Assembly: GCA_945874105.1 (NCBI GenBank)
Contig: CAMCFJ010000020.1
Location: 1 to 52,200 of the forward strand
Origin: Candidatus Nitrotoga sp. CP45
Lineage (GTDB): Bacteria; Pseudomonadota; Gammaproteobacteria; Burkholderiales; Gallionellaceae
Direction: 5' to 3'
Length of the DNA stretch: 52,200 nt
In this document: piece after piece, positions 6,504-49,633 of the stretch
Position numbering within the stretch: the stretch's first letter is position 1
Layout: each line of letters begins with the position of its first letter
The notes under the pieces: model-generated
Told to the model about the DNA's origin: nothing
The model's database searches: none
The model's input: only the letters and a program-made list of their open reading frames with translations
Program-made: the position numbers and the translations under genes

Positions 6504-7547
6504 CTAGCTGCGTAGCCCAATCGTAGCCACTTCCCCTGAATCCTTGCCTACTAATTTCAAACTGGACAGGCGATCCACGTATTCGGTCAGATGTTCGCTG
6601 GATAGATGAGCATACTTCCTCACCATCTCGACGCACTCCCAACCGCCAAGCTCTTGCAGCACATGAAGCGGTGTTCCTGCTTGCACATGCCAGCTTGCCC
6701 ACGTATGCCGCAGATCATGCCACCGAAAATTCTCGATGCCGACCTTTGCCAATGTGTTCCGCCATGCCTTCGTGTTGACCTGCACCAGCGGATTGCCGTG
6801 GTAGCTAAATACATGCGTTGAATGATTGCCGATCTGCTCACGTATCACTATCACAGCGGCAGCGCTCAACGGTACTGCAATCGCCTTTCTTGTCTTGGCC
6901 TGATCCGGGTGTATCCATGCGGTGCGGCGAATGAGATCAATCTGTGACCACTGCAAGCCTGTGACGTTGGAACGCCGCAAGCCTGTTTCCAGAGAGAACT
7001 TCACCACGGGCACCAGATGTTTCGGCAAGACTGCAATTAGCCTGTCTGCCTCTTCTTGGGTAATCCAGCGCACCCGTCGATTTGGCTCAGGTAACATTCG
7101 AATGCGAGGGACACGATCCAGCCACTCCCATTCGTTGCTAGCCTTGCGTAATACCGCCCGAATCACTTCCATCACGCGATTGACTGAACTGTTCTTTACC
7201 CTTTCAGCCATGCGCACAGCCATGATCCTATCCAGCAATTCCCGGTTGATCTCATCCAGCATGCGACCATTCAAGAACCGATCCAGCCAGCGCAAATGCG
7301 TCTTGTCACTGGCCTGAGAAGCCTTGTGTGTGGTTTCTGCCAAATATCGAACCACCGATTCATTCCAAGTATGGCGGGGTTTGACCCCCAGCCGTGCCTG
7401 ATCCCACAAAGACGCCTTCAGCTTGTCGTGCAATTCTTCGGCTTTTGCCTTGTCGGCAGTGCCAGTGCTTTGCTGTATTCGTCGTCCGTCGTGGGTGATA
7501 ATTTTGATCCACCAATACGGTGAATCCTTGCGTTGGAAGAGTGACAT
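6504..7547 (-). CDS. int: Tyrosine recombinase (site-specific integrase)
   Basis: A 347-residue phage-type integrase. The N-terminal part MSLFQRKDSPYWWIKIITHD is the usual arm-binding start, a SAM-like core-binding domain spans about residues 60-150, and the catalytic domain shows R in ETGLRRSNVTGLQW, H-x-x-R in HDLRHTWASW, and the terminal Y in MVRKYAHL. It should cut and join attL and attR through a 3'-phosphotyrosine. Its 3' end abuts the tRNA-side junction. The gene overlaps the 3' end of the HTH gene and is the last gene of the Rep-HTH-Int set. Confidence 0.93.
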   Translation of the reverse strand: MSLFQRKDSPYWWIKIITHDGRRIQQSTGTADKAKAEELHDKLKASLWDQARLGVKPRHTWNESVVRYLAETTHKASQASDKTHLRWLDRFLNGRMLDEINRELLDRIMAVRMAERVKNSSVNRVMEVIRAVLRKASNEWEWLDRVPRIRMLPEPNRRVRWITQEEADRLIAVLPKHLVPVVKFSLETGLRRSNVTGLQWSQIDLIRRTAWIHPDQAKTRKAIAVPLSAAAVIVIREQIGNHSTHVFSYHGNPLVQVNTKAWRNTLAKVGIENFRWHDLRHTWASWHVQAGTPLHVLQELGGWECVEMVRKYAHLSSEHLTEYVDRLSSLKLVGKDSGEVATIGLRS

Positions 7548-7751: not shown

Positions 7752-8681
7752 TTATTTCCAAGAACAAGCCCAACCAGCGAGCATGCCTTCCCCATCCCAC
7801 ACGAAACCGACCGAACCGCCTGATGCCTCTTTCAGTTTGTCGAGGGCAACATCCATCACGGGGCGCTCTGAGCGTAGTGAGAGGGTAAAGCACTCCATCG
7901 GCACCTGAATGTTGCGCGACGAGCGGAAACGATGTTTGTTGAGTTTCCTATCGCCTGTTGCAAAAGCTTTGACTAGATACTTACCGAGATATTGAACCAG
8001 ATAGAGCCGCTGATCTTTGCGAGTGCCTTTAGGGGCGCTTACGTCGATATTCCCTTCACCTACGATTTCGCGCCACAATCTGCGAAGCAACTCCACATCT
8101 TGCCGACCACGAACCGCCAGGTGCCAATGCCATGCGCCTCGCTCTTGCTGTTCTGCAACAGCCACATATAGCCACGGAGGTAAATGAAATTTCACTTTTC
8201 GGACGAAGCGATTCAAATCGTCTGATGCGCGGTTGAAGTCGGTGACATTCTCCCGGTAGGTGAGGGTAAGCAAGTGAGTGAGATTTGCGCCCAAGATGAG
8301 CTGACGTAGGCGAGACTTTGCGCGGCGAATTGCGCGATCTTCGTTATTGATACGTTGGGTTGACGAACCACGGGCAGCTTTGTGACTTGGACTTAATCCA
8401 ACAAAAGACCACCCCACTTCTGCAAGCCCTATGCCATAATTGCGTAAAGTAATGCGATTTTTAGCGGTGCTGGGTGTGTTGAAATATGTCCTCTTTTCAA
8501 GTCTAGGGGCGGCTGCGCCGCCCGAGGACTCTTCCACGGACAGCGGGTGCGGAACGGGCGCTATTGCCACCTCGCCGCATTCCCTAAATTTGGTACGTGG
8601 CGCGCTGGTGCGCGCCTCCGTACCAAATTTTGGAAACGCGGCTGCGGCGGCTCCAGTAAAACCTTCGAGTTTCTGATTCAT
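7752..8681 (-). CDS. rep: Rolling-circle replication initiator, HUH endonuclease family
   Basis: A 309-residue protein with three motifs of rolling-circle Rep proteins: motif 1 LTHLLTLTYRE, motif 2 GAWHWHLAVRG (the HUH metal site), and motif 3 YLVQYLGKYLVKAF with the nicking tyrosine and following lysine. It should nick one strand at an origin, stay bound to the 5' end and start unidirectional replication of the excised circle. Residues 1-80 are Ala/Pro-rich and variable. It leads the rep-xis-int set and has a good site AGGAG before ATG. Filamentous-phage, plasmid and satellite Reps share these motifs, so the kind of element is not settled by this gene alone. Confidence 0.82.
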   Translation of the reverse strand: MNQKLEGFTGAAAAAFPKFGTEARTSAPRTKFRECGEVAIAPVPHPLSVEESSGGAAAPRLEKRTYFNTPSTAKNRITLRNYGIGLAEVGWSFVGLSPSHKAARGSSTQRINNEDRAIRRAKSRLRQLILGANLTHLLTLTYRENVTDFNRASDDLNRFVRKVKFHLPPWLYVAVAEQQERGAWHWHLAVRGRQDVELLRRLWREIVGEGNIDVSAPKGTRKDQRLYLVQYLGKYLVKAFATGDRKLNKHRFRSSRNIQVPMECFTLSLRSERPVMDVALDKLKEASGGSVGFVWDGEGMLAGWACSWK

Positions 8682-12597: not shown

Positions 12598-12928
12598 TGT
12601 AGTGGTCAAGTAATTTTGGACACAACGATAGTTTTTTTTGCTGCTTTGTTTCGCTCAAAGACGGAGGGCGACAGATTGCCCAAAGCTGAGTGTATGCGAT
12701 TACAGTTATAGAATCCCACGATGTATGCGGTGATATCTGTTTTAGCTTCCATTTGATTGGCATATTCGCGCTGCCAAACGCGCTCCATTTTGAGGTTCAG
12801 GAAGAGGCATTCTGCCACTGCATTGTCCCAACAGTTGCCCTTACGGCTCATGCTGCAGACGAAGCCATGTTTCACTAGCAAAGCCTGATACTGGCTATTG
12901 AGGTGGCCGTGTAAATTAGACCACTACA
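12598..12928 (-). mobile_element. Internally deleted IS3-family element with both ends
   Basis: The left end TGTAGTGGTCAAG (12598) and the right end, whose reverse complement starts TGTAGTGGTCTAATTTACAC (12928), form terminal inverted repeats with 10 matching outer bases. The roughly 330 bp between them contain only the end of the transposase gene (12606-12881, minus strand): SMSRKGNCWDNAVAECLFLN, then FYNCNRIHSALGNLSP, the rve core C-terminus of IS3 OrfB. OrfA and most of OrfB are deleted. No flanking target duplication is visible. It forms one edge of the glycosylation island. Confidence 0.8.
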
Positions 12929-12973: not shown

Positions 12974-13894
12974 TCATAAAGTCAGGTTCAGACCCGCAGC
13001 CTTCCCCCACTCGGCGATGCTACGTTCGTTGCCTGGCCCGTAGCGACCGAGGCTGCGCAGGTCGCCCTTGCCATAGACCAGGGTTTGAAGCCGGCTGACC
13101 ATTAGATCCGTTCGATCATTCTGCCACTGGCTACTCTTTACCTCCCACACCTTGTGCCGGTATCCGTTCGGATAATTATTGTAGTCTAGATGCCAGACCT
13201 GAATTTCGTCGGGCAGGTAAATATCGTAGCCGTGGGTGAACGTTCGCAGCGAAAGCGGCCCCTCGTGGCCAGCATTGATCATCGCGGGATCCTCCGGCAC
13301 ATCGAGTATCCATGCGCCATGCGTGAAGACAAAATTGCAGCAAGTAAATGCCGTCTTCTGATGAGGCTGGGATTTTCGTTCCGGCGACATCTGGATGTCC
13401 AGCCACCCTGCAGGCCGGATGATGTCGCACTTCATCAGGGGCACCCCGTCATACTCGGTTCCTTTCCAGGGTATTACAACATTCCTGGCCTCGTCGAAAG
13501 TAAAAGGTGGCGAACTCGTGGTGAGTAGCGGCTTGTCGCTCGGCTTGCTCTCGAGTTGAGCAATCAGGTTTTCATCCCAACCCGGCGCGAACGAAGAATG
13601 CGAGTCGATCAGCAGATGGTACTTTTCTCCGTCGTAGAGTTTCTGTACCTCCGCACGCGACCAGCCGTAACCGAGACTTGCGGCATAGGCATACTTACGG
13701 ATGCGAAACCTTGGGTCGCCAATGAAACGGTCAAGATTTTCGGTTTCGTCAGCCTGCCAGCAAATGCCGAAGACCAGACGATCCGGGTGCACGGCGTTGG
13801 CAATTGCGGAGTCGATCGTGAAAGGAAGGTACATATCCCGATACGATGCGATCGAGATGAATATCTGCCGCTCCTTTGTCACAGCGGCATTCAT
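12974..13894 (-). CDS. GT60-type GlcNAc-transferase-like glycosyltransferase (operon gene 7)
   Basis: A 306-residue protein of the PF11397 family: IFISIASYRDMYLPFTIDSA at the N-terminus, FGICWQADE, and the metal-site region YHLLIDSHSSFAPGWDENLI with the family's D-S-H motif. The prototype is the cytoplasmic Skp1 GlcNAc-transferase of Dictyostelium, which acts on hydroxyproline; the donor here is inferred to be a UDP-HexNAc. It is the last gene of the coupled operon: its ATG overlaps the upstream stop by 4 bp (ATGA). A role as a sugar-transfer step on the operon's hydroxylated peptide is inference from context. It is paralogous to the gene at 23030. Confidence 0.85.
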   Translation of the reverse strand: MNAAVTKERQIFISIASYRDMYLPFTIDSAIANAVHPDRLVFGICWQADETENLDRFIGDPRFRIRKYAYAASLGYGWSRAEVQKLYDGEKYHLLIDSHSSFAPGWDENLIAQLESKPSDKPLLTTSSPPFTFDEARNVVIPWKGTEYDGVPLMKCDIIRPAGWLDIQMSPERKSQPHQKTAFTCCNFVFTHGAWILDVPEDPAMINAGHEGPLSLRTFTHGYDIYLPDEIQVWHLDYNNYPNGYRHKVWEVKSSQWQNDRTDLMVSRLQTLVYGKGDLRSLGRYGPGNERSIAEWGKAAGLNLTL

Positions 13895-15012
13895 ACCGGC
13901 TCGAGCCTGAGGGCCCCGATGCGCTCGAGGCGTTTGACTACCACCTCAACATCGGCCTGCAGGCTACCGGGCGGCATTTCAAAGCGTGTTTCGAGCTCGT
14001 TGTTGATCTCGGCCAGGCTGCGGCTGCCATCGCAAACTTCCCAGATCGCAGCGCCCGAAGAATTCAGAGACACGGTATCCGCGCGGCCTGGAATCTCGAG
14101 GAACAAAGAGCCGAGAATTTTCCCCTCGCGTACCCCCTTGTGACGACAGGGTTTCAGAAATGCCAGCTCGATTCCTTGCGCACGCCGCTCGAGGAATTCG
14201 GCGAGCAAGGCAAGGAACTCCCGCCCGGGGCCGGCTTGGGCGCGCTCAGGCTGAACGGGATCCCCGTTCCGATAGGTGTCCGGATCCCACACGATCTCGT
14301 CGTCTGTCGACGCAATCGGGCGCTGGTAGTCAAGGATCGGGGCAGCGCTCTGCGGGGCATCTATCCTGGCACCCAAGTCAGCCAACGTATGCTGGATACC
14401 GGCCTCGGCCGCAGCGATCACATAGGCAATATTGTCGGCATCCGGCACAGGGCCGTGCGGCTTGCTTGCTGTCTCCGCGCGTATGATGCTCATCAGCTCC
14501 AGCCAGCGCGCCGCGATCTTGCGCAGGTCAGCCGAGTGGATCAGTATCGGCAGCTTCACTGCCGGGAGTTCGAGTGTGCGGTCCACGCAGAACCCTGTGA
14601 GGAAATCAAAACCCGAGCCCAGCCCGAAGGGGCCTTCGCCGCGCGGCAGGTCGGGCCATGCCGTCGCTCTGGCCTGCCCGCGCCCGACTTCGGATAACAC
14701 AGGAGATCGAAAAACACTGTCCGGTTCGAGCAACAGTACAGTTCCTTCAATCTTCTCTGTGAACAGCCATTCGAGTAACGCTGCCGCCTTATTGTAAGAG
14801 GGGTACATATCGCCCGTGTACGGATGCGGTGACCAACTCAGGGTCTCGACAACGCGCGCGAGCCGAGCGCGTGGAACCGGGTTCCCGGGCATGGATGCGA
14901 TCAGGCGCACCAGCTCGCCCGGTTGCCGGGCACGGCCCCACGAGTATTCGAGGAGTTCCGGCTGCCACTGCATTTCACTGCTGGCTGGGTTGCAGAAAAC
15001 GGTGTAGATCAC
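13891..15012 (-). CDS. HPAT-like glycosyltransferase with C-terminal PqqD domain (operon gene 6)
   Basis: A 373-residue fusion. Residues 1-270 resemble plant hydroxyproline O-arabinosyltransferases and peptidyl-serine galactosyltransferases: TVFCNPASSEMQWQPELLEY at the start, YNKAAALLEWL, and the metal motif LLLEPDSVF (about 94-102). Residues 297-373 are a PqqD domain: LNSSGAAIWEVCDGSRSLAE and a terminal RLERIGALRL. PqqD is the leader-peptide recognition element of RiPP pathways, so the enzyme should be recruited to a precursor peptide. The start is a GTG overlapping the stop of the upstream hydroxylase gene (GTGA). It would add a sugar to hydroxyproline or serine. Sugar identity is unknown. 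Confidence 0.8.
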   Translation of the reverse strand: MIYTVFCNPASSEMQWQPELLEYSWGRARQPGELVRLIASMPGNPVPRARLARVVETLSWSPHPYTGDMYPSYNKAAALLEWLFTEKIEGTVLLLEPDSVFRSPVLSEVGRGQARATAWPDLPRGEGPFGLGSGFDFLTGFCVDRTLELPAVKLPILIHSADLRKIAARWLELMSIIRAETASKPHGPVPDADNIAYVIAAAEAGIQHTLADLGARIDAPQSAAPILDYQRPIASTDDEIVWDPDTYRNGDPVQPERAQAGPGREFLALLAEFLERRAQGIELAFLKPCRHKGVREGKILGSLFLEIPGRADTVSLNSSGAAIWEVCDGSRSLAEINNELETRFEMPPGSLQADVEVVVKRLERIGALRLEPV

Positions 15013-15974
15013 AACTTGTTTCCTCTTTTGTCCTGGAACGCAGCAAACTGCGGCGCGACCACGCCACAGCGAAAGTGGCCCCAGCCAAACACTGCTCCAG
15101 GGTCGATGCGCGCGGCGCGGTGCAGCCAGGTCGTGACTGCAAAGCGGCTATCCGCGAATTCTCTCGACGGGCAGCGCACCGGCATTGCTTCGTGGAATTC
15201 CTCACTGGGGAAAACCACCAGGCGATTAGCGACGGGCTCCACCGTCGTGAAGGTATCTGCGGACCGGCGCGAGCCGCCAGCTTCAATGCAGTCGTAGAGC
15301 CGCAGATCCCCTCCCGCAAATCCGCGAGGCTCGCGATGAAGGTAGTAGACGCAGGAGAGCACTCTCGGGAGATCCAGTGCATCGTCACAATGCACCTTGA
15401 AATATTGGCCGTCTCCTGCGGCAGTCAGCTGCGACTCGACGCTTGCCAGCGGAAACAGCGGCATGCCAAAGGTCTTGGCGAGCAGCGGGAACCAAATCAG
15501 TAGCCGGTTCTGAATCAGCCGGCTGTGCACCGACTCGCCGAAGTTGATAATGACCAGATTCTGCCGCGTCTCCGGATCATACGAAGTCACGGTGCCCGCC
15601 TGGAACTGCTCCTTGGATAGCAGCGCGTAGGCGAGCAGTTCGTCGTGTTCTTTCGGGCTCATGAAATCGTCGATGACCACGAATCGGGGGCGGCGCAGCT
15701 TCGTAGAGAGGGGGATGTGTTCGGCACCATGCGCCTTGCGAAGCTCCATCACTACAGGGGGCTCGCTCTCTATCGAGACGAGTTGCGACGTCTGAAACGA
15801 ACAGGCGACCTTGCCCCCGTCAAGAGGGAGTTGTATAAACTGATTTCCAGACCCTGGAGTGGATAGCGCCGTAAAAATGGTCAACAGCTCCGGCGCATCT
15901 TCGCGCAGTGTCACCGCATGCTCATGGCCACCTGTCAAGCGTATCTTCAGCTGGATGTCGCGTAGCGTTGCCAT
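15009..15974 (-). CDS. 2-oxoglutarate/Fe(II) oxygenase, prolyl-4-hydroxylase-like (operon gene 5)
   Basis: A 321-residue protein with a double-stranded beta-helix oxygenase domain in residues 95-290. The iron triad is visible as H195-x-D197 in YFKVHCDDA and H261 in SEEFHEAMPV, and R277 in SRFAVTTWLH is placed to bind 2-oxoglutarate. The FVVIDDFMSPKEHDELLAYA opening is typical of P4H-type enzymes. The N-terminal 90 residues form a separate beta-rich domain. The start at 15974 overlaps the upstream stop by one base (TGATG); a longer frame to 16046 would intrude on that gene. The expected reaction is proline hydroxylation in the repeat of the operon's small protein, by inference. Confidence 0.82.
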   Translation of the reverse strand: MATLRDIQLKIRLTGGHEHAVTLREDAPELLTIFTALSTPGSGNQFIQLPLDGGKVACSFQTSQLVSIESEPPVVMELRKAHGAEHIPLSTKLRRPRFVVIDDFMSPKEHDELLAYALLSKEQFQAGTVTSYDPETRQNLVIINFGESVHSRLIQNRLLIWFPLLAKTFGMPLFPLASVESQLTAAGDGQYFKVHCDDALDLPRVLSCVYYLHREPRGFAGGDLRLYDCIEAGGSRRSADTFTTVEPVANRLVVFPSEEFHEAMPVRCPSREFADSRFAVTTWLHRAARIDPGAVFGWGHFRCGVVAPQFAAFQDKRGNKL

Positions 15975-17983
15975 CAGTCGGTGGCCTCGAACAGTGCATG
16001 GTTCCAGCGCGAGAGAAGTTGCGCTGACTCCTGCGGACGGTTCCAATAAAGTTGGGCGGCTGGCCGTTGCTCAAGCAGGCGGCATAGCAAATTCACGCCG
16101 TTATTTCTTTCGATTTTGAAGTCCAGTGACGCGCCGATCAGCGCGGCTACTGCGGTGGCGGGCGACATGGGTGTGATGGTCTCATCTCTTACGTGGAGAG
16201 GTGCCTTTACCGCAACCACTATACTTGTAAATGCTGTCGATATCCGGCCCGATTGCGAGCCTGCTCCCTCCGGTTGTGTCTTCGCCCCTAACGGAAGGAT
16301 TATGAGATCCTTGATGCGGATGGCGAACAATCCGCCATCAAGTAATTCCCATCCGTTCGTCTGCAAGGCTTGCAGAAGTGAGTCATTTGAGCCGCCGATA
16401 TCACCGGCAATCACCATGCCCCGCCCGTCCTTGGAAAATGCCGCAGCCTCAAGCCAAGCATACTGATGCCGGGCCTGTGCAAAGATTGTCACGATCTGTC
16501 GCTTGAGCAATAACGGCAGTTGCGCTTTGTCGCAGTGAGTCCTCTCCGGACGTCCTCTTTGTTCGATCCAGCAACCTGCGGCTGATATGGAAATTTCAAA
16601 ATTGGCGATCACATTGCTGGGCTGGGTATGGAGCTGCGCGCCAAACTCCGGAGCCAATCGTTGCAATATTGCAGCGTCATTGGACCAGACCGCTATCTGG
16701 ACATTCTCGAAGGTGATGTGAATAACTTCCTGTCGTGTGGAGGTGGCAGCATATGACGTGACAATATCCGCGCCGCCAGCCGGCTTTGCCGCAAGGGAGC
16801 CAGTTGCCAGCACCTCTGGCATCAGAAAACTCTCCGGCCACTCGCGCATCCAGGCAGGATTGAGCAACTGGCTGACACGATTCCATGAGTATGGCCCCTC
16901 GAACTGTTCAATCATCTCACCCCGCTCAAGCGGAATGCAATCACTGAAAGCATGTCGACCACGCTCGATCTCATGACCTGATTCCGGCAGTTCATTCCAG
17001 ATGTACCGAAACGTCTCATGCTTGCCACGATTCCCGCGGTAACGCTGAATGATTCCGGTGAAGGTACTCGTCATCGTTCCCATGAACTCCTTCGCCTCGG
17101 CGGCAACAAGTTGAGACAGAAAGGCGAGACTCAAGCTGTCGGTCTGGGGAAGCTGCGCGAATTCCGCGCCGTAGTTGTCGAGAATATGCCAATCTATAAA
17201 ATAGTGATTGGGGTAAGCGAGCTTGATCGCATTGAAAAACGGATCATCGCGCTCGTCGGTAACAATGACTAGAGGATCCTTGCGCTCGAACACCTGATCC
17301 ATAGCCTCAATCGCTTCGCAGGGCTTGCGGTCCAGGGTAGTCACGCCATAGGTGACCTTGAAGTCGCCGCGGCGCAGGTGCACCGCGTTGAAAGGGCCGA
17401 TGTCAAGGGCAACGCGTGCAGCCAATTCGGCGAAAGGTCGCTTGGCCTGCATACGCTGAAGAAGACGGTAAACCGATCGCCGCGTTTCATTGTCGAGGTA
17501 GAACTGGTAGCTGTAATTACTAAGGTTGGCGCGGTGGTGCTGGCTGCCGGGGACCAAAGGATCCTCGGAAAGCCGGAGCACTGGAATTTCCTCATGCTCG
17601 CCGCCAACCGTCAGCCAATGCTTGCGGCCACGGGCGAAATTTATGGCAGCGTTGCTTGACAGGTCTAGCGTTTTCGGAAAATAAAAAGCAAAGTCCCACA
17701 GCGACAAGTCCGTAAGCTCGATGCTCGCAAGCCCCTGCAAATCGACTGCGTCAGGCTCGACCCAAGGCACCGGAATGTCGAGCAGATCGGTGATCCGGCT
17801 CGGCTGCAAATTGCTCACACGGCCATCATAGGAAACGATATTGGCTGGTGGCGACACGTTGCCATCGAGAACAAGCAAGCGGTTGGTCAGGTGCGCGAGT
17901 ATTACGCCGACCTCGATCGACATGATGCCGTTGCTAAGCCCCGATCTGCCGGACTGGTAGTTTGTGTAGTAGAGATAGCGCAT
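15974..17983 (-). CDS. O-fucosyltransferase-like domain fused to degenerate HprK-like domain (operon gene 4)
   Basis: A 669-residue fusion. Residues 1-330 look like a GDP-fucose protein O-fucosyltransferase: NYQSGRSGLSNGIMSIEVGV (nucleotide-binding start), AVHLRRGDF (about 200-208) and MTSTFTGII near 303. Residues 425-640 match HPr-kinase-related proteins encoded beside PqqD, with AWLEAAAFSKDGRGMVIAGD and GWELLDGGLFAI. The P-loop position reads GDIGGSNDSLL, lacking the GK[ST] of Walker A, so kinase activity is doubtful and a binding role is more likely. Its ATG follows the upstream TAG directly. Donor and acceptor are unknown. Confidence 0.75.
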   Translation of the reverse strand: MRYLYYTNYQSGRSGLSNGIMSIEVGVILAHLTNRLLVLDGNVSPPANIVSYDGRVSNLQPSRITDLLDIPVPWVEPDAVDLQGLASIELTDLSLWDFAFYFPKTLDLSSNAAINFARGRKHWLTVGGEHEEIPVLRLSEDPLVPGSQHHRANLSNYSYQFYLDNETRRSVYRLLQRMQAKRPFAELAARVALDIGPFNAVHLRRGDFKVTYGVTTLDRKPCEAIEAMDQVFERKDPLVIVTDERDDPFFNAIKLAYPNHYFIDWHILDNYGAEFAQLPQTDSLSLAFLSQLVAAEAKEFMGTMTSTFTGIIQRYRGNRGKHETFRYIWNELPESGHEIERGRHAFSDCIPLERGEMIEQFEGPYSWNRVSQLLNPAWMREWPESFLMPEVLATGSLAAKPAGGADIVTSYAATSTRQEVIHITFENVQIAVWSNDAAILQRLAPEFGAQLHTQPSNVIANFEISISAAGCWIEQRGRPERTHCDKAQLPLLLKRQIVTIFAQARHQYAWLEAAAFSKDGRGMVIAGDIGGSNDSLLQALQTNGWELLDGGLFAIRIKDLIILPLGAKTQPEGAGSQSGRISTAFTSIVVAVKAPLHVRDETITPMSPATAVAALIGASLDFKIERNNGVNLLCRLLEQRPAAQLYWNRPQESAQLLSRWNHALFEATD

Positions 17984-18625
17984 CTATTTATCGGTAGTGA
18001 CTATCGACCGATCGGCCGGGTAATAGTGGACGAAGATGCCAGCATAGTAGTCCCCATCCAGCGGATAGGGGCGGCCATGCACAAGACGGGTCCCCTCGTA
18101 AAAGATGAACTCCCCGGGTTCCATGTTGACTTGGCTCACTTCGCCGTCAACGCTTTCGATGTGCAGCGGCCAAGGAGATTTCAGCACGTGATCCACGCAA
18201 ATCGTAGAACTGATGAAATGAGGCTGCCGATCCACGTGGTTGTAGAGAAAAGTTCCGCGCTGATAGCAACGGATGCCGTAGCAATGAGACAAGACGAGCG
18301 GCCTGCCTGCCCAGGCTTCATGCAGTGGCCTGAGATCTTCAGCAAGCCGTGCGTTGAAACCCTCGTCTTCGAACAGCAGCGTCGCGATGTTTCCCTTGGC
18401 GGCGGTCCCTATCTCATCAATCACGCCTTCGGCGCGAAAGTATTCGATATTGGCACGGAAGTGAGCAAGCAGGCGCTCGTGCACTTCTGGATCGAGTCTT
18501 GCCTTGCGAAACCCCAAGCCGAAGTAGGGCGCATCGGCCTGCATTTGGTCACACTTTTTTCGCAGAAACTCAGGGGCCTCGAACTCCGGCACCAATGCCT
18601 GTGCGTCAGTTGGCGCGCGACTCAT
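17984..18625 (-). CDS. 2-oxoglutarate/Fe(II) oxygenase, hydroxylase-like (operon gene 3)
   Basis: A 213-residue protein formed by a single oxygenase domain. The metal ligands are H130-x-D132 in LYNHVDRQPHFISSTICVDH and H183 in GTRLVHGRPYPL, with the family pattern MEPGEFIFYEG between them. The end YYAGIFVHYYP completes the beta-helix. It differs from gene 5 in size and sequence, so the two may modify different prolines or perform different hydroxylations. A good site AAGGAG lies six bases before ATG, although the gene overlaps the previous one by 20 bp. Confidence 0.82.
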   Translation of the reverse strand: MSRAPTDAQALVPEFEAPEFLRKKCDQMQADAPYFGLGFRKARLDPEVHERLLAHFRANIEYFRAEGVIDEIGTAAKGNIATLLFEDEGFNARLAEDLRPLHEAWAGRPLVLSHCYGIRCYQRGTFLYNHVDRQPHFISSTICVDHVLKSPWPLHIESVDGEVSQVNMEPGEFIFYEGTRLVHGRPYPLDGDYYAGIFVHYYPADRSIVTTDK

Positions 18626-19931
18626 GAAGTCTCCTTTTTGCAGCTATCGCCAGATCGAAAAAACATCGTTCTACATCGCTTTGGGCGCCCCTGCGAAAAC
18701 TCTCGAGATTTTCGACGAGAAAGTCCCTGTCGAGAAAGAGTTGTTTGTTCCACTCCGAACCGAGGAATGGCCCGCCGACACCATCGTTGATGTCGGCGTA
18801 GTAATGGAAAAAAGCCCCCTCTGGCAGCGTTGCCTGCTGCGGCTCAGGCACTGCAAATTCGGGATTGTCGAGCAGTTCGTAATCAATTTCGTTCGCAGTA
18901 AGTGCCATTGCAAAGCAAGCCATTTCCGCCATCCAAACATTGTGATCCCCTAGTCCCGCCGCTTTCCCAAGCAGGTAGAGAATCTGCGCAAAGCGGAAGC
19001 AATCCTGGATCACCTTGTTCGTGCCGATGGTAGCGCCGTTCATGAATATGGTCACACCGCCGCGTTTAAGCGTCCTGTCACAGCCTAATGAGCCCAGAAG
19101 CTTTTGCAGATCAACACCGACTTTCTGGCTGCCGAAGCCCATGAACAGCCTGTCATTGATGATAGTGTTAGACGCCATGGCATTCCCAGCGGGGAAGATA
19201 TCCGCACGCATGTCGCCATACAGGAACAGGTCAGTGTCCATGAGGCATACGATGTCGTCAGGATCAACGTGGGCAGCAATCGCTTTCAACGCTTCGACGC
19301 GGTTGAGTGCTACATAGCCGCCACCCCCCGAAGAGAAGTCGATTTTGTGGCTATGTGCGTGATTGGCACCGGTTATCGCACGCGCACCGTAAACCTTGAG
19401 CAAATGAGTGAGTTCTGCGGAAAGGCTTTTATAGTCGTTGCACACGACCACTGTTATATCCCAGCCCGTTGCGAGTTGCCCAACTAGCGACTCGAACAGG
19501 ATCGCCAGTTGCCAACAAAAGTAAGGCTTGTCTTCGATACCGAAAACGAAACGCACACGGGTGTCATGCTCAGATTGTCGGACGGAATTTACCGCAGCAG
19601 CACCCTGTTTGCCAGAGGATGAGGTGGATAGTTCAATCAGGCCGAGATGATAAAAACGGAATAATGCTTCGGAGAGATCGGCGAGCATGCTGACATCTTC
19701 GCCATCGTAACGCGCACGAAGCGAATTAAGCATATCTAACGGGGTATGTTGGCCGTCGCACAAGTTCCATACACCAGCGGCTGACTCGTTCAGTGCATGC
19801 GCCAATTCCCCCTCGGGCGACAGCAAAACGAGTTCATTAGCTACGGGAAATTCGGCAAATTCCGGTCGACGTCTTGGCCGCATGGCCAAATCTGGATGCG
19901 AGTGTACTGGGGAAACACTCGGGATACTCAC
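18606..19931 (-). CDS. PqqD domain fused to glycosyltransferase (operon gene 2)
   Basis: A 441-residue fusion. Residues 18-101 form a PqqD/RRE domain (LNESAAGVWNLCDGQHTPLD and FYHLGLIEL). Residues 125-400 are a glycosyltransferase related to the HPAT/peptidyl-serine galactosyltransferase group: YFCWQLAILFESL, IVCLMDTDLFLYG with the DxD metal motif (about 232-234), and FMNGATIGTNK. PqqD is at the N-terminus here but at the C-terminus in gene 6, so fusion happened twice. The start is a GTG within the precursor's stop (GTGA), giving translational coupling. It probably binds the precursor leader and glycosylates its repeat, by inference. Confidence 0.8.
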   Translation of the reverse strand: MSIPSVSPVHSHPDLAMRPRRRPEFAEFPVANELVLLSPEGELAHALNESAAGVWNLCDGQHTPLDMLNSLRARYDGEDVSMLADLSEALFRFYHLGLIELSTSSSGKQGAAAVNSVRQSEHDTRVRFVFGIEDKPYFCWQLAILFESLVGQLATGWDITVVVCNDYKSLSAELTHLLKVYGARAITGANHAHSHKIDFSSGGGGYVALNRVEALKAIAAHVDPDDIVCLMDTDLFLYGDMRADIFPAGNAMASNTIINDRLFMGFGSQKVGVDLQKLLGSLGCDRTLKRGGVTIFMNGATIGTNKVIQDCFRFAQILYLLGKAAGLGDHNVWMAEMACFAMALTANEIDYELLDNPEFAVPEPQQATLPEGAFFHYYADINDGVGGPFLGSEWNKQLFLDRDFLVENLESFRRGAQSDVERCFFDLAIAAKRRLHESRAN

Positions 19932-20458
19932 TTCGAACCGCTATCGTCCTCGGATCCACCACTGTTTTTTGATCTGTCTGCGCCAGCGGCGCCGATTCGA
20001 TCCATCACAAGCTTTGAACCCGTAGCAGCCAGAGCGCTGCCCAGAGCAGCGATACCAATAAGGCCAAGACCTGGGATCGGCACAGCGTTCACGAAAACCG
20101 TGGGTGCAGCCGGGGTGGGTGGAGCACTCGGCGCCGAGGTGGGTGCAGTAGTCGGCGCCGAGGTGGGTGCAGCACTCGGCGGCGGGGTGGGACTCAGGTG
20201 ACTATCTGCGTTGGCCTTGCCGGGCTTGGTGAGCAACGCCGCCGCCAAAGGCACAGACAGAATCACCGGAGAAACCCAGCCTACAAGAGATTGTTGAATT
20301 ACTTGGCGGCGCGTAATAGGCACCGAAAAAATGGGTTGGGACGATCCTCCTGATACGGATTGGTCTGAATTTGTATCGCGTGCCGCGAGTTGCGTCTTAA
20401 GAACCGCGATCTCGGCTAAAAGCTGCTCTGTTGTCTTCGTGTCGTTATGGTCAGTCAA
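19928..20458 (-). CDS. Candidate precursor: leader, RR-hydrophobic segment and APTS proline-rich repeat (operon gene 1)
   Basis: A small protein of 176-179 residues. In the 179-residue numbering: residues 10-31 form a leader-like helix (TEQLLAEIAVLKTQLAARD); 51-80 have a Tat-like ITRRQVIQQSLVGWVSPVIL then a hydrophobic stretch ending at KANA; 88-123 are a Pro/Ala/Ser/Thr repeat with 12 prolines, six of them exactly four residues apart (97, 101, 105, 109, 113, 117); 129-148 are a second hydrophobic segment; the tail is Ser/Gly/Asp-rich. The AGGAG site is correctly spaced for TTG at 20458 and too close for GTG at 20467. Its place as first gene before two PqqD fusions and two hydroxylases marks it as the likely substrate. 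That role is inferred. Confidence 0.72.
   Translation of the reverse strand: MTDHNDTKTTEQLLAEIAVLKTQLAARDTNSDQSVSGGSSQPIFSVPITRRQVIQQSLVGWVSPVILSVPLAAALLTKPGKANADSHLSPTPPPSAAPTSAPTTAPTSAPSAPPTPAAPTVFVNAVPIPGLGLIGIAALGSALAATGSKLVMDRIGAAGADRSKNSGGSEDDSGSK
20106..20198. repeat. 24-bp tandem repeat coding for the APTS motif
   Basis: Two copies of a 24-bp unit (20130-20153 and 20154-20177) are nearly identical, with more diverged partial copies on both sides. Each unit encodes eight residues (two tetrapeptides) of the proline-rich region of the precursor. Tandem units in frame can vary in number between strains. Confidence 0.75.
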
Positions 20459-20566
20459 GAGATGCACTCCTTTAAAATTATGTCATGAAGCCCAACTCAA
20501 GCTGAACCGGGCATTAACCCGGATTGTCCTTTGGATGCGCGAATCCAATAAAATAAAATCAATAAT

Positions 20567-20591
20567 GTTTCTAATGGATATCATTAGAAAC
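20567..20591. promoter_or_regulatory. Perfect inverted repeat in the operon leader region
   Basis: GTTTCTAATG / CATTAGAAAC, 10-bp perfect arms with a GATAT centre, 109 bp before the precursor start. It is the only marked structure in the gene-free stretch 20468-20785, in AT-rich sequence suitable for a promoter. It may be an operator or an mRNA hairpin. Confidence 0.45.
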
Positions 20592-20785
20592 TTCCCTGAG
20601 TTTTTCAATGAGACGCGGCTCTAATGGTCAATCTGGGATTAAGCGGCACTGCAATGTTGTAATACGATTTAAACACACTCCGGGGGCGGTTGGCAAGCTT
20701 GCGCGTACCGCACCTAGGCTAGGCTTTGGGTTTGAATTTATCCGCTGCGCCCTCCAAAAAAATCAATGCCCCATTGAATCCGTAC

Positions 20786-22225
20786 TTATTTTCTATATCG
20801 CCCCGGCGGAATCTTGAAGTCGTAGAGATTTTCCACAAAGTCATTAAAACAGTAGGCGTTGGGGTTAGCTTGGCACACATAAAATTCCGCTGCGCCCCGA
20901 TTATCCTTGTTCTGCTCCCAGAATTCGTAGCCGCTGGGTAATTTCTTTATATATTCGCTAGTTGCCCACCAAAAATTTCCACTGTAGTGGCTTTGACCGC
21001 ACTGAAGTTCCACCCCGCAGGTTTCGTACTCCTTCAGCATGGTTGCGCAATCCTCCCATTTTTCAATATTGAAGTATTCCATGTACTCGCGCCATGCGTT
21101 GGCGGCGTCTCGCGCCGGAGACTCGGCTAACGACGCTCCTTTGGTATGAAGGTAGTAACATACAAACGACTTTTCATTGTCTTGTGCTTCTTTCCACACC
21201 CTGGCCAATGTTGGGAATTCGTAATCTCTGATATTGTCCGTAACGAACACCTCAAACTTTGGGTCATCCAGGATCGGTATATTCAATTCGCACTCTCGGT
21301 TCGTCCCGCCGACGAAGCCGACGACGATTTTTTCACTCGCGTCATAGAGTCCGGACTCCATCAATTTAGCGTATTGTTCGGCGATTATTCTGCGCCAGGC
21401 ACCGATCACCCCAATATGCCAAAAGCCAATGATCTTCTTTGCTGGCTTAAACCGGACAACCGGTTTGCACCACAAGGGAGGCGGTGACAAGGGCCGTGCC
21501 GTCGCTTCGATCTGCCCATTTATGTCTGTGGGGCTGCTTTGCAATGGGATTGCTTCACTGCTCACGCGCATTATGCTCAAAGCACGAGCCTCATCCAACA
21601 ACTGGGATTTTCGTATAGCTATCATCATCGGATGGAACTCGACAGCCCTCACATCCCCGCTCAGTTCGTCCATCGTGCGGATCAGCTTGAGGAGAAGCGC
21701 ATCAAGATCCCCACGCCGATTCGGATCAAACTCTTCCTTGTTGTATGCCATACCGGGCCATTGCGGATCAACCGCGTCATAGCTGATCGCGGTATCCTCC
21801 ATTACATAGATTCCACCATCCATCACCATCGGCCAGAGAAAGCGGAAAGACTCGATCATGTGGGGGACGTAGTGGCTCCCGTCGTCGATGACTACACCGA
21901 GAGGAGGAAGCGAAGAGAGTGCCCGCTTGATCGCCCCCTGATCCGTCTGACTCGCGAGCACAAATTTTGCCCCATCCGGAACATAGTGCATTGCTTCTGG
22001 GTTCACATCCACCCCAATCACCTTCGCATTGGGGAAGTACTCTAGCCACATCCTTAAAGATCCGCCAAAGAGGACTCCGAATTCAATCAGGGTGAATTCT
22101 TGATTTCTCATTTCGCTAAACAGCCCCTCATAGACATCCAGATATGTCTTCCCTCGAAAACTATGGAATGGGTTATCTTTGTCAGTGTTGAAATGGCGAG
22201 CTTTATAGAGTTCAGGGAGTGTCAT
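20786..22225 (-). CDS. SAM methyltransferase (CmcI-like) fused to a glycosyltransferase-like domain
   Basis: A 479-residue fusion. Residues 45-200 form a class I methyltransferase of the CmcI/MycE type: LIEFGVLFGGSLRMWLEYFP, VIGVDVN, VIDDGSHYVPHMIESF and GGIYVMED. Residues 265-479 resemble a glycan-modifying domain with IIGFWHIGVIGAWRRIIAEQ, CYYLHTKGAS and SHYSGNFWWA; the HTKG and SGNFWW patterns recur in capsule-type glycosyltransferases. The ATG at 22225 is preferred because it starts at the conserved MTLPELYKARHF; the frame continues to 22330 without obvious conservation. It may methylate a sugar after transfer. It is co-oriented with the operon downstream but separated by 318 bp. Confidence 0.72.
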   Translation of the reverse strand: MTLPELYKARHFNTDKDNPFHSFRGKTYLDVYEGLFSEMRNQEFTLIEFGVLFGGSLRMWLEYFPNAKVIGVDVNPEAMHYVPDGAKFVLASQTDQGAIKRALSSLPPLGVVIDDGSHYVPHMIESFRFLWPMVMDGGIYVMEDTAISYDAVDPQWPGMAYNKEEFDPNRRGDLDALLLKLIRTMDELSGDVRAVEFHPMMIAIRKSQLLDEARALSIMRVSSEAIPLQSSPTDINGQIEATARPLSPPPLWCKPVVRFKPAKKIIGFWHIGVIGAWRRIIAEQYAKLMESGLYDASEKIVVGFVGGTNRECELNIPILDDPKFEVFVTDNIRDYEFPTLARVWKEAQDNEKSFVCYYLHTKGASLAESPARDAANAWREYMEYFNIEKWEDCATMLKEYETCGVELQCGQSHYSGNFWWATSEYIKKLPSGYEFWEQNKDNRGAAEFYVCQANPNAYCFNDFVENLYDFKIPPGRYRK

Positions 22226-22288
22226 AAATGCCGATTTATATATAACGTTATCAAGTTTGATTGTAGCAAATGGGGTTGAGCAATTTAC

Positions 22289-22933
22289 ATGGTTATTGAG
22301 CAAGTGGTATATCCTGCAAGACTCAATCAATTTGTTGCCAGCCTATTCTTCAGTGGCTTAAATATAAAATCCTTTCAGGAAGAAATACTGAAACTTCCTG
22401 TAGAAATCATTGAAGGTGATGGCGATGACTATGGCCTCTATATATTTGGTTTGTTCCTTGCGTGAAATTATTTTTAAAAATTAAACTTACGGGTCGGAAC
22501 ATCAGGGTAAAAATTTAATCTGGAATCTTGATGTGGGCGAACGCAACAAGGTAATTTTAAACCATGAAGATTTCGTAACCATAGACTTATAAGTACTGCC
22601 CAGCAATGCTTCAAAGAGATTAATGAATTATTCAAACACAAGCCAATATTGATAATCGGATCATATTTGCTGAAACGCGATAGTAATGAGCATACAAAAT
22701 GGGACGAGGCCGATACAACTTTAAACGATTATGTGAATTATTATCGAAAGCAAGTTCAGGAGAGAATTAAATTTTGCATCAAGGTTTATCAAAATATGGG
22801 CTATTTAGATATGACGGAACACACTCAAACGAAAAATGTATTAATAGATCAATATCATTTTAATCAGGCGGGTCAACAAATGCTGTCAGGCACAATATTG
22901 GATTGTATATCCACTCACTGCAAGCCAGAATAG
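22289..22933 (+). pseudogene. Broken AT-rich gene, SGNH-hydrolase-like end
   Basis: Three fragments in different frames can be read: MVIEQVVYPARLNQFVASLF onward to a TGA at 22465; TYGSEHQGKNLIWNLDVGER onward ending at ITIDL-stop near 22592; and from about 22600 a frame containing ELFKHKPILIIGSYLLKRD and ending DQYHFNQAGQQMLSGTILDC to 22935. The last has the D-x-x-H context (DQYHFNQAG) of SGNH/GDSL hydrolases. Together they look like one frameshifted gene much richer in AT than its neighbours, probably foreign. Nothing else is seen in 22226-23029. Confidence 0.5.
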
Positions 22934-23029
22934 TCAAAATCCATTGCAGCCTGGATCACTGCTGGGCTTTAAATGCGAGGGGTATTCATGAATGGTGTTG
23001 CGCAGTTGCTTCGAAAAGTCGCCAAGCAG

Positions 23030-24040
23030 TTAACCCCACGGCACCAGACCGAGCTCCCTGGCTTGGTCGAACGTGATACAGCGATCCCAGTCCGCTTCTG
23101 AATGTATAGTCACCGGGTTCGGGTTGGTGCCGGTAAATACGTCAGGATGAGCACGTTTGTTGCGGAAATCGAAACCCGAGTAGATTTCGTAATCGCGCAA
23201 TGAGCGGATCCGACCAAGACTGAATGGGCCGAGGCTGTGTCCTTCAGCACTGTATAGCAGTCTGCGCAATCGCTCAAAAGCAACGGCGTTGCGTTGTTGT
23301 ATGACATCCTCGCCATGTTCCCAGTGACGGCGCGGTGGCGCACCGCGATGCAGCATGTGCCACGCCACCACTTCGCTGGGCAGGAATAGATCATAACCCC
23401 AAGTAAAACTGCGTACAGTGATACTGAATTCCTCTCCCCAGTAGTAGTGGTCTGGGTCCTGAGGCACTTCCACATTCCATTGCCCACGGCTGAACGCGAA
23501 ATTGCCGTTCACAAAACGAGTTCTTCCAGGTTGCTGCAGGTTCGGTTTGCCGAAATCGAACCATGGTGCCCATCCCCCCTCCTCATTCCAGCCACTGACT
23601 TTTGTCGTCGGCACACCCATGTCGAAATTGCGCTGCAGCATCCCCTCATCGTCGTAATGAAACAACGGTGAATTCATCGTGATGATCGGTTTTTCGGCGG
23701 GCAATGCTTCCAGCATCTCGATCAGCCGGGCGTCCCAGTCCGGCTCGAATTTCATGTGCGAATCCACTTGCAGTGTGTAGGCCTCGCCACGCCACAGTGA
23801 CTGCGCCAGGTTGCGGGCCCATGGTCCTCCCTCGCTCTCCCGAACAGTACGATCAATGAAGCGAAAGCGGGAGTCAACTCTGAACCTCTCCACATTGATC
23901 GGTTGATCAGGATCCTGCTGCCAGCAGATTCCAAAACGCAGGTTCTCCGGCCAGCGCGCCATGGCGCCGCAGTCTTCCAGTGTACGCGGCAGTTCGGGGT
24001 CAGCATAGGATGCGATGGCAACAAATATCAGCGGTCTCAC
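23030..24040 (-). CDS. GT60-type GlcNAc-transferase-like glycosyltransferase, second copy
   Basis: A 336-residue protein of the same PF11397 family as 12974-13894: FVAIASYADPELPRTLEDCG, LRFGICWQQDPDQP, and YTLQVDSHMKFEPDWDARLI with the D-S-H metal region. The middle carries FVNGNFAFSRGQW and the C-terminal part AWHMLHRGAPPRRHW. This copy is closer to the typical bacterial form than the operon copy. It would transfer a HexNAc-type sugar to a protein or peptide. It is transcribed away from the exostosin-like gene, with 183 bp between them. Confidence 0.85.
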   Translation of the reverse strand: MRPLIFVAIASYADPELPRTLEDCGAMARWPENLRFGICWQQDPDQPINVERFRVDSRFRFIDRTVRESEGGPWARNLAQSLWRGEAYTLQVDSHMKFEPDWDARLIEMLEALPAEKPIITMNSPLFHYDDEGMLQRNFDMGVPTTKVSGWNEEGGWAPWFDFGKPNLQQPGRTRFVNGNFAFSRGQWNVEVPQDPDHYYWGEEFSITVRSFTWGYDLFLPSEVVAWHMLHRGAPPRRHWEHGEDVIQQRNAVAFERLRRLLYSAEGHSLGPFSLGRIRSLRDYEIYSGFDFRNKRAHPDVFTGTNPNPVTIHSEADWDRCITFDQARELGLVPWG

Positions 24041-24223
24041 CGGTGCAATAGCCCTTAAGAAAATAAATCTGTGATGTTGTGAAGAGGAAGTAAGCTGGCA
24101 GTATAAACGTAAATCAACCTAGCTTGGCTCGTGGCATCATTCCAGATTGTCGCAGCAGTAGTAGCATGCGAAGATTCGCAGGATGTACAATAAACCTCGA
24201 CAGACTTAGCTCCAGGACGATAC

Positions 24224-25195
24224 GTGATAGCAACAAATAGCCTAGATTCAAATGCAGTTGAAATATTCATATTGCGTCAAATCCGCGATGCCATTCGAGG
24301 TCACGATCTTATCGACTGGGCTATAGACGACTTCGAATCGTTTCTGTCGCTGTTTAACATCATTCATCTACAGGACGGAAGCGTCTCACGGATGAAAGAT
24401 GGTGCGATCTACCTCAACACGCTTCCGGATATGGTTCGCATGCATGCCAAGTGTAGAACTTCCCATATACTGATCACGCACCTGAACGAAAACTGGGGCG
24501 GGTTCTCGACAACGGTTCCCAATCGAACCGTAGACTGGGGTAATTGGCATTCGCATATGATCGACGCCGGATGCACACTCCAGATGGTGCAGCAGTACTT
24601 GGACGACCCCAAGGTGCTAGCCGTGGTCACAACTCAGCACACCGCCTTTGGGCATCCCTCCATTCTGTCAATTCCAATCGGCATCAAGCATCCTCAGGAA
24701 ATCATTGATCACCTTTTTCATGCGGATGGCGTAAAAACACAAGAGCTGCTGTTAAACAATAGCGGCTGGGGGCATCGCCAAGGGATCAATGAACGTGTTA
24801 TTGCAAACTTTTCTGGTCGCATCAGCAACGCGTATGGAATACACCAATCCGAATATTACGAGTCCATCACCCGCTCAAGATTTGTGCTTTGTCCATCCGG
24901 AATGGGTTGGGACTCTTATCGCATATGGGAAACCCTGCTGCTGGGAGCCATTCCTATCGTCGAGTATTCAGCAGGCTGGGATGCAGTACTCGATGATCTG
25001 CCTGTTTTATTCGTCAGGAATTTTGACGAGGTTACACCTGAGTTGCTCGCCGTGGCATATCCGGCCATCCTATCTCGATGCCAGAGCTTCGATTACGGCA
25101 AACTGACGAAACAGTGGTGGGTTTCAAGGATCACAGGATTACTGAACTGGGCGCCTCCCAGCATTAGAATTGAGTCTCATCGCAGAATTGCGTGA
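24224..25195 (+). CDS. Exostosin-like (GT47-related) glycosyltransferase
   Basis: A 323-residue protein. The C-terminal half has the nucleotide-sugar site of exostosin-like enzymes: YYESITRSRFVLCPSGMGWD followed by SYRIWETLLLGAIPIVEYSA. The N-terminal half contains ITHLNENWGGF and LSIPIGIKHPQEI, as in bacterial proteins of this type. There is no signal peptide, so it acts in the cytoplasm. The start is GTG at 24224. Donor sugar is unknown. It converges with the large multidomain gene and ends 25 bp from its stop codon. Confidence 0.78.
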   Translation: MIATNSLDSNAVEIFILRQIRDAIRGHDLIDWAIDDFESFLSLFNIIHLQDGSVSRMKDGAIYLNTLPDMVRMHAKCRTSHILITHLNENWGGFSTTVPNRTVDWGNWHSHMIDAGCTLQMVQQYLDDPKVLAVVTTQHTAFGHPSILSIPIGIKHPQEIIDHLFHADGVKTQELLLNNSGWGHRQGINERVIANFSGRISNAYGIHQSEYYESITRSRFVLCPSGMGWDSYRIWETLLLGAIPIVEYSAGWDAVLDDLPVLFVRNFDEVTPELLAVAYPAILSRCQSFDYGKLTKQWWVSRITGLLNWAPPSIRIESHRRIA

Positions 25196-25220
25196 ATGCC
25201 TGACTGGGTGCAGAAAGTGG

Positions 25221-28262: not shown

Positions 28263-28466
28263 GAAAGCTATTCCAGGGTCGCATCAGTGCTGGCTGTGAT
28301 CTTTTGGGCATGATATGGGCTTAGTTCGACCAGAAAAAAACAGGGGGGGAATTCGAGGAGAAAAAGCAGCGTGCGGAATTGCAGCAATTGAACAGGATGA
28401 GATATATGTTGTACATTATGAAATTATATCGGACTTACATTATGTTGGTAAATTTAGAGATGAATC

Positions 28467-29333: not shown

Positions 29334-29423
29334 CGGAATGTAAACCCGCAGGCGGAGGTTGTACTTTGCCGAAAAACAAGTCAGGCAAAAAAGGTCATGG
29401 CGCACTGACCGTACTTTTCTGAT

Positions 29424-49629: not shown

Positions 49630-49633
49630 TCTA

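Follow-up and report, generated by a model that had tools for sequence, protein, structure and literature searches.

Glycosylation of hydroxyproline is a chemistry regarded as eukaryotic. In plants, the hydroxyproline residues of extensins and other hydroxyproline-rich glycoproteins (HRGPs) are O-glycosylated with the help of HPAT, GT77 and GT47 enzymes. In bacteria, the serine-rich repeat adhesins of streptococci are glycosylated in the cytoplasm and then exported by an accessory Sec route, and peptide substrates are usually handled by means of PqqD-type domains carried on several enzymes, as in pathways for ribosomally synthesized and post-translationally modified peptides (RiPPs) that depend on a RiPP recognition element (RRE). 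A protist precedent is the Skp1 pathway of Dictyostelium and Toxoplasma, where PhyA, a hydroxylase of the prolyl hydroxylase domain (PHD) type, acts before the GT60 glycosyltransferase Gnt1. Hydroxylation of Skp1 by Dictyostelium PhyA (Protein Data Bank (PDB) entry 6t8m) enables its glycosylation (PMC7864055), Gnt1 activity depends on PhyA, and both Skp1 Gnt1 and a Trypanosoma cruzi polypeptide N-acetylglucosamine (GlcNAc) transferase are placed in GT60 (PMC6939170). The present analysis concerns a seven-gene operon, P1–P7, of Candidatus Nitrotoga sp. CP45, which lies in a stretch of 52,200 nucleotides (contig CAMCFJ010000020.1; contig 20 of a 2.5-Mb genome) referred to here as the window. The operon probably, if with considerable room for doubt, directs leader-guided cytoplasmic hydroxylation and O-glycosylation of an exported protein rich in proline and threonine. 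Both halves of such a pathway are known, namely RRE-guided peptide modification and, in protists, hydroxyproline glycosylation by a PHD-type hydroxylase and a GT60 enzyme; the new part would be their union in bacteria on proteins exported by twin-arginine translocation (Tat). Among the open-access papers listed, no title or abstract opening describes this combination.

The seven genes occupy positions 12974–20467 of the minus strand and have no internal stops. They are fully coupled, and every junction overlaps or abuts exactly as claimed in a preliminary description made from the sequence of the window. On the coding strand, P1 and P2 meet in GTGA (4-base overlap), P2 and P3 overlap by 20 bases, P3 and P4 abut (TAG followed by ATG), P4 and P5 share one base in TGATG, and 4-base overlaps recur at P5/P6 (GTGA) and P6/P7 (ATGA). 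P1 most likely starts at the TTG at 20458, which lies 8 bases after the Shine-Dalgarno sequence AGGAG (20471–20467), and its orthologue in the Nitrotoga congener G003 likewise reads from a TTG at the same point; the gene as first drawn is real, and its product is shortened from 179 to 176 amino acids. Alignment with homologues places the start of P5 at the ATG at 15974 and not at the mechanically called TTG at 16046. The GC content of the seven-gene block is 0.566, versus 0.479 in the remaining window.

The same neighbourhood was found with its full gene set in seven genomes: the window genome and its congener G003 (locus label CP45 in the analysis), two other Gammaproteobacteria (OFTM78, L017 in G535, and Luminiphilus syltensis NOR5-1B, L018 in G536), and three genomes of one class (the deltaproteobacterium OFTM157, L016 in G534, together with G741 and G742). 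The three loci of OFTM157, OFTM78 and Luminiphilus were confirmed among 34 stretches that matched a pattern in a scan of genome contigs. In the window, G003 and these three distant loci, the genes follow P1 contiguously in a single order with no other conserved gene between them. The block of G741 is split over two contigs within P3, and that of G742 has P1–P3 and P4–P7 near the ends of two contigs, with open reading frames after P3 that look sulfotransferase-like by eye (the one tested scored below threshold). G003 keeps the entire 12974–30893 locus in the same order, with proteins 68–93% identical (P1, 49%). Outside Nitrotoga, identity to the window proteins in full-length matches is 48–51% for P2, 53–56% for P3 (66% for a 101-residue G741 fragment), 45–51% for P4, 45–50% for P5, 37–50% for P6 and 68–71% for P7. 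With its recurrence in seven genomes and its raised GC content, the block is beyond chance.

Its distribution is patchy. P2 and P6 were each found in 2 of 149 genomes searched (the window genome included) and in 2 of 19 genomes of the genus, four of which are less than 90% complete. Among 140 genomes of the family of Luminiphilus, 31 matched P2, full length in Luminiphilus only, the rest matching in the PqqD part (29) or at profile positions 325–370 (G650). P3 matched 16 of 348 genomes of the order of OFTM78, OFTM78 alone at full length, and OFTM157 only among 395 genomes of its phylum, a draw whose matches did not include G741 or G742. A P3 profile run on 148 genomes of the class of OFTM157 gave four matches: OFTM157, G741, G742 and the distant G732. 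The last carries two tandem P3-like oxygenases beside a gene that looks nucleotidyltransferase-like by eye (L058 3826–5026); with no match to P6 or to a precursor, it was rejected as a carrier and possibly holds a different system. When P6 was run against 398 genomes of the window's phylum, the three matches beyond its own genome all lay in the PqqD part only. Searches of plasmids with P2 and P6 (tblastn) returned none, and none of 70 pattern matches of the P2 profile in viral contigs was confirmed. The patchy spread (1 of 140, 3 of 148, 1 of 348 and 1 of 395 genomes) and the raised GC content suggest that the cluster was transferred as a unit.

The candidate substrate is P1 (19928..20458, minus strand), a precursor-like protein of 176 residues with a leader, a twin-arginine signal, a tail rich in Pro, Thr, Ser and Ala, and a C-terminal hydrophobic stretch; its conserved leader and Tat signal span 20207..20458, the end being approximate. 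Ten P1-like proteins of 124–331 residues occur across the seven system genomes, with a precursor gene ahead of P2 in each system, and share a three-part build: a leader with the consensus KT..(Q/E)L..E(I/L)..L, a twin-arginine signal with the consensus RR...W..PV(I/V)L..P, and a Pro- and Thr-rich tail. P1 itself reads KT..QLLAEI..L followed by TRR...W.SPVILSVP ... AxA. An alignment of eight precursors (A13) has 12 invariant columns in the leader and signal, and the RR pair is invariant in all eight. The tails diverge widely while the leader and Tat parts stay conserved: the Nitrotoga tails have short Pro-rich stretches, OFTM78 has some 200 residues of NPT/SPT repeats, and the second precursor of G742 has SPTQEPTR repeats. 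Such second precursors with a different tail are present in three genomes (G534, G741 and G742). Five of the ten precursors (both from Nitrotoga and the second in each of G534, G741 and G742) have a hydrophobic stretch followed by an acidic or Ser/Gly-rich end, which the other five are without. Pro-Thr is the dominant dipeptide of the long tails, and its frequency exceeds that expected from composition: with the tail boundary set by rule at 12 residues past the Tat core, none of 1000 shuffles reached the observed count in 7 of 10 precursors, and 2, 13 and 15 of 1000 did so for G003, the second precursor of G534 and Luminiphilus, respectively.

Neither Pfam nor NCBIfam gives a match to P1 at E values up to 1, and on that basis its identification as Skp1 was rejected, as was sorting by an IPTL-CTERM/exosortase system (no NCBIfam match at the same limit). 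A tblastn search with the window P1 alone at E 1e-8 recovered the precursor in 4 of 8 loci tried; the precursors that it missed are assigned by profile, position and motif. Directly upstream of the precursor in G742 (L057 5929–7611) and G741 (L060 2892–4256) are PT-repeat proteins with a hydrophobic, Arg-rich C-terminus and, judged by eye, no leader.

Evidence that the precursor belongs with the enzymes came from a profile of the leader and Tat signal with which 80 genomes were searched: the seven that carry the system and 73 that do not. The controls comprised 17 Nitrotoga genomes, 20 of the family of Luminiphilus, 21 of the class of OFTM157 and 15 of the order of OFTM78; apart from G732 they were taken in the order of their handles, and each had previously been searched for P2, P6 or P3. 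Every one of the seven system genomes gave a full match, at E 2.2e-24 or better, and none of the 73 controls did. The system genomes gave ten strong matches (E 1.3e-18 or better), eight of which match by construction, the profile having been built from them. The second precursors of G741 (1.5e-19) and G534 (1.3e-18) were left out of the profile and are therefore fair, blind positives. One weak leader-only match each in G741 and G742 (E 0.06–0.07) was not counted. Partial matches at E up to 0.1 were found in 16 of the 73 controls, none over the full profile; the longest covered profile positions 1–52 (G690, 2.6e-4) and 19–73 (G695, 0.05), and the best (G685, 1.5e-7) falls on the opening ~30 residues of a protein that Pfam identifies as a PAS histidine kinase; several further matches look like such kinases by eye. 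Close likeness to the leader is seen in the first ~25–30 residues of PAS histidine kinases at L095 (identified by Pfam), L096 and L101 (both by eye). The preliminary description had named failure of the precursor and the PqqD fusions to co-occur in related genomes as what would speak against it; they occur together in all seven system genomes.

Recognition of the leader would fall to PqqD-type domains. P2 (18606..19931, minus strand) has one at its N-terminus, followed by a glycosyltransferase-like domain with a DTD motif invariant in five orthologues (alignment A8), and P6 (13891..15012, minus strand) has one at its C-terminus, behind an HPAT-like domain. Both score above the Pfam cut-off of 23.4 bits (39.1 for P2 and 45.2 for P6), and all five P6 orthologues match the domain. 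The PqqD equivalog for pyrroloquinoline quinone (PQQ) biosynthesis gives 22.7 and 33.2 bits against a cut-off of 46, so a role in PQQ biosynthesis was rejected. In a fold search with an AlphaFold2 model, the PqqD part of P2 resembles TbiB1 with bound leader (5v1u; template-modelling score on the target about 0.8, E 3.7e-4 to 5e-3); the model is poor overall, with a predicted local distance difference test score (pLDDT) of 49, and only this part of the search was used. In G534, G741 and G742 a third PqqD-bearing protein follows P7, with a GT25 match over the cut-off in G741 only, and each system has two or three enzymes with such domains. A second module, the ~75-residue N-terminal domain of P5 (no Pfam family), recurs on other enzymes at these systems: a transferase of PF03407, a family linked to GT77, at OFTM157 (L016 6642–7862), a methyltransferase (L018 16815–17654), a further protein (L065 307–1644) and an oxygenase fusion (L085 8504–10162). 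Two modules shared by many enzymes fit a scheme in which the enzymes are brought to one substrate, which either module may bind. The system resembles RRE-dependent RiPP pathways (lasso B1, PqqD) in its PqqD-type domains with a TbiB1 fold, its conserved leader and variable tail, and the two precursors in 3 of 7 genomes. It differs from them in that its core has no match to a cyclase, peptidase or ATP-binding cassette (ABC) exporter, its precursor is a long protein, and its leader is joined to a Tat signal.

The two 2-oxoglutarate (2OG)/Fe(II) hydroxylases with an HxD...H motif that had been proposed are both upheld as 2OG-type proteins, P5 by Pfam and P3 by predicted fold. P5 (15009..15974, minus strand) matches 2OG-FeII_Oxy_3 (PF13640) with 65.1 bits against a cut-off of 27, and its H195xD197...H261...R277 residues are invariant in all five orthologues (alignment A11). 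Its best profile match in the PDB is Dictyostelium PhyA (6t8m, E 2.5e-11), and the next are the Pseudomonas putida EF-Tu hydroxylase PPHD (4iw3) and human EGLN1. By family P5 is a PHD-type prolyl hydroxylase, with that activity putative. P3 (17984..18625, minus strand) matches nothing in Pfam at E values up to 1, and searches of PDB sequences with P3, P4 and GT60 profiles gave nothing useful. Its AlphaFold2 model (mean pLDDT 71.8) has a 2OG-type fold, for which Foldseek returned 3dkq (best, 1.1e-7), PPHD (4iw3, 1.5e-6) and PHD2, as well as the comparably close non-prolyl 2OG oxygenases AviO1 and HalD; H130-x-D132 and H183 are invariant in five orthologues (alignment A9). P3 is perhaps a prolyl hydroxylase, and non-prolyl targets would fit these fold matches comparably well.

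P7 (12974..13894, minus strand) is a GT60 glycosyltransferase, as had been claimed: it matches PF11397 ('GlcNAc') with 140.7 bits against a cut-off of 21 and retains its DSH motif, the D and H of the DxH motif being invariant in nine GT60 sequences (alignment A14). In all seven systems the P5 and P7 genes lie on one contig with only P6 between them. A second GT60 enzyme is encoded at 23030..24040 on the minus strand (PF11397, 147.9 bits). By tblastn, its orthologues are found at L015, L017, L018 and L065 (66–85% identity), and, in G534 and G741, fragments of 65–68% identity cut by the locus end lie next to each genome's second precursor (L112, L113). Because its orthologues sit near a precursor gene in all six other system genomes, the second GT60 gene is judged from this conservation to belong to the core, and the extent of 12974–20467 given earlier, correct for the seven genes, does not mark the limits of the system. 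These features recall the Skp1 pathway, with a PHD-type hydroxylase nearest to PhyA close to GT60 genes and a probable cytoplasmic setting. Unlike Skp1, the candidate substrate is an exported Pro-Thr protein, the enzymes bear peptide-recognition domains and the genes form a bacterial operon.

P4 (15974..17983, minus strand; alignment A10) had been described as an O-fucosyltransferase-like/HprK-like fusion. The first likeness persists as a sub-threshold match to O-FucT (PF10250; 25.1 bits against a cut-off of 31.5, with 24.7 and 16.2 for the orthologues at L017 and L018); the second is far weaker, with HprK_rel_A at 27.9 against a cut-off of 200. The P-loop lysine is gone in 6 of 7 orthologues yet intact in OFTM78 (GASGKS), a pattern that points to loss of a kinase site and not to its original absence. 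An HPr-kinase system was rejected on the score and on the restriction of this lysine to OFTM78.

In the proposed mechanism, P1 would be made with an N-terminal leader ahead of its Tat signal, an arrangement seen directly in the sequence. Through binding of the leader by the PqqD-type domains of P2, P6 and, in three relatives, the third protein, the enzymes would be delivered to the tail, as the family and fold of these domains suggest. P5, and perhaps P3, would hydroxylate tail prolines as PHD-type hydroxylases do. Glycosylation would begin with P7, which by analogy with Skp1 would most likely place alpha-GlcNAc on hydroxyproline; threonine or some other site may be the target of the second GT60 enzyme. 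The glycan would be extended or decorated by P2, P4 and the variable flanking transferases, sulfotransferases and methyltransferases. The finished protein would exit via Tat, a single cut by signal peptidase removing leader and signal together, and the product would be a mucin- or extensin-like glycoprotein at the surface or released. The Tat route has two attractions: 2OG enzymes and nucleotide-sugar transferases usually work in the cytoplasm, and glycosylated cargo would suit Tat, which accepts folded or bulky proteins, better than Sec. The scheme parallels the streptococcal adhesin system in its cytoplasmic glycosylation of a repetitive protein followed by an export route suited to modified cargo. 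It differs in that Tat replaces accessory Sec, hydroxylases are present and the transferases are of other families. The leader-guided, hydroxylated, glycosylated and exported Pro-rich product of the preliminary description draws support from the co-occurrence of precursor and PqqD fusions and from the PHD and GT60 pair; its HprK, HPAT and O-fucosyltransferase details are less secure than first given.

Several observations weigh against this scheme. TatC, present in 7/7 system genomes, is common among control genomes too (11 of 14), so its presence only permits export by Tat. In some controls, PAS histidine kinases have an N-terminus similar to the leader; descent of the leader from such N-termini is possible, and the likeness of its helix to a common N-terminus cautions against calling the leader unique or its binding by PqqD shown. 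The transferase domain of P2 has no Pfam family, and its model (pLDDT 49) is too poor for one to be assigned. The HPAT match of P6 (PF23452, 25.4 bits) barely passes the cut-off of 23.9, with 4 of 5 orthologues matching at E up to 1, and its site looks degenerate: at the presumed position of the acidic metal-binding motif, the seven orthologues read EPDS, ESNC, DSSC, DSDC, GGGS, DLRS and DSRS. With no acidic site conserved at that position, the domain may be non-catalytic, a leader-binding part or scaffold, and the earlier assignment of P2 and P6 as PqqD-glycosyltransferase fusions stands for the PqqD-type domains and for the marginal HPAT match. The missing P-loop lysine of P4 counts on the same side, as do the mere 4–6 PT dipeptides in four tails (the window, G003, Luminiphilus and the second of G534) and the ability of GT60 enzymes to act also on threonine.

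In a rather unlikely, though substantial, alternative, substrate and leader guidance are the same and the sugars are attached to Thr (and Ser) of the Pro-Thr motifs; hydroxylation by the 2OG enzymes, whether of proline, another residue or a sugar, would then not create the attachment site. In GT60, the alpha-GlcNAc transferase for T. cruzi polypeptides acts on threonines of mucins, Thr is at least as frequent as Pro in 4 of 10 tails and reaches at least 80% of Pro in three more, Pro-Thr dominates the long tails, and P3 lies comparably near AviO1 and HalD. Against this, the nearest matches of P5 are prolyl hydroxylases, headed by the very enzyme that precedes GT60 in the Skp1 pathway, and P5 is paired with P7 across P6 in every system. 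A different and improbable view makes P1 an exported scaffold or anchor, the enzymes building or modifying some other protein or a glycan of the cell surface. Likeness to transferases and sugar-nucleotide enzymes usable for polysaccharides is seen in several flanking genes, and other PT-repeat proteins stand directly upstream in G741 and G742; yet a precursor gene precedes P2 in every system and varies mainly in its tail, three genomes have two precursors with different tails, and PqqD-type domains on several enzymes are typical for peptide substrates. It is at least as improbable that P1 gives rise to a classical RiPP, with a short modified peptide released from it by cleavage and secreted as a natural product. 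The match of the PqqD-type domains to TbiB1–leader complexes of lasso peptide pathways would suit it, as would a Nitrotoga flank protein with DUF1796, named a putative papain-like cysteine peptidase. However, DUF1796 occurs only on that Nitrotoga-specific accessory gene, the conserved core has no family match in Pfam or NCBIfam to a peptidase, cyclase or ABC exporter, and the precursors, at 124–331 residues, several with long repetitive tails, carry a Tat signal. A lasso peptide pathway was itself rejected for want of a cyclase match.

The reading preferred here thus remains leader-guided hydroxylation and glycosylation of the Pro-Thr-rich tail. The chances are evenly poised that the locus represents a new bacterial class, in which RiPP-type leader recognition programs a hydroxyproline-rich, mucin- or extensin-like glycoprotein through prolyl hydroxylation, a GT60-initiated glycan in the cytoplasm, Tat export and a single cut. 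Such a class would be the bacterial equivalent of the protist PhyA–Gnt1 pathway and possibly related to that pathway's source. Likeness to the plant extensin/HRGP pathway is seen in the HPAT-like P6, the PF03407 transferase at OFTM157 and the RXYLT1_C/GT47-like gene in Nitrotoga. Unlike that pathway, the HPAT site looks degenerate, the window tail has no run of four prolines after a serine, and there is no endoplasmic reticulum or Golgi. If the proposal is true, bacteria use the logic of peptide leaders to make hydroxyproline glycoproteins, and a compact model for hydroxyproline glycosylation would be at hand, one carrier, Luminiphilus syltensis, being a described and cultured species. Programmable glycoproteins would be possible, the tail being exchanged and the leader retained, and the locus would offer a clue to the origin of the protist PhyA–Gnt1 pair. 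Oxygen-dependent hydroxylases in nitrite oxidisers could also tie surface properties to oxygen supply.

The genes around the core are more variable. On the minus strand at 20786..22330 is an accessory gene confined to the two Nitrotoga loci, its role suggested by position, for a methyltransferase-like domain joined to a conserved C-terminal domain; the G003 orthologue (142043–143425, L014) has the C-terminal ~290 residues in common (68%), and its N-terminal domain is glycosyltransferase-like by eye. Beyond the second GT60 gene follow the RXYLT1_C/GT47-like gene (24224–25195, plus strand; RXYLT1_C over the cut-off, Exostosin_GT47 below), the 1013-residue fusion of DUF1796 and a glycosyltransferase (25221–28262, minus strand), a Galactosyl_T/Fringe-like gene with a sub-threshold match (28467–29333, plus strand) and a gene for a FAD oxidoreductase (29424–30893, minus strand), all four being Nitrotoga accessories. 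All genes of 24224–30893 are kept in order in G003, and neither they nor 20786–22330 had a match in the other loci examined. In G003, an exosortase H gene lies 1.2 kb beyond one locus end, and beyond the opposite end is a large choice-of-anchor U protein whose IPTL-CTERM match is sub-threshold (L013 11508–14381 / L014 16334–16948). In OFTM78, an open reading frame of 2288 codons directly follows P7 (L066 1274–8140), with regions above the Pfam cut-offs for sulfotransferase, glycosyltransferase 92 and, twice, methyltransferase; by eye, its start looks like the PqqD-bearing proteins that follow P7 in G741 and G742, but the frame itself has no PqqD match. Directly downstream of P7 in the window is a transposase fragment (12606–12881; Pfam rve_2 and rve_3 over the cut-off), and a mobile element near the cluster includes a phage-integrase family protein (6504–7547) and a REP_ORF2-G2P replication-associated protein (7752–8681). 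Farther along, at 48001–52000, the GC content of the window falls to 0.34–0.40 in a region whose genes look glycosyltransferase-, methyltransferase- and sulfatase-like by eye.

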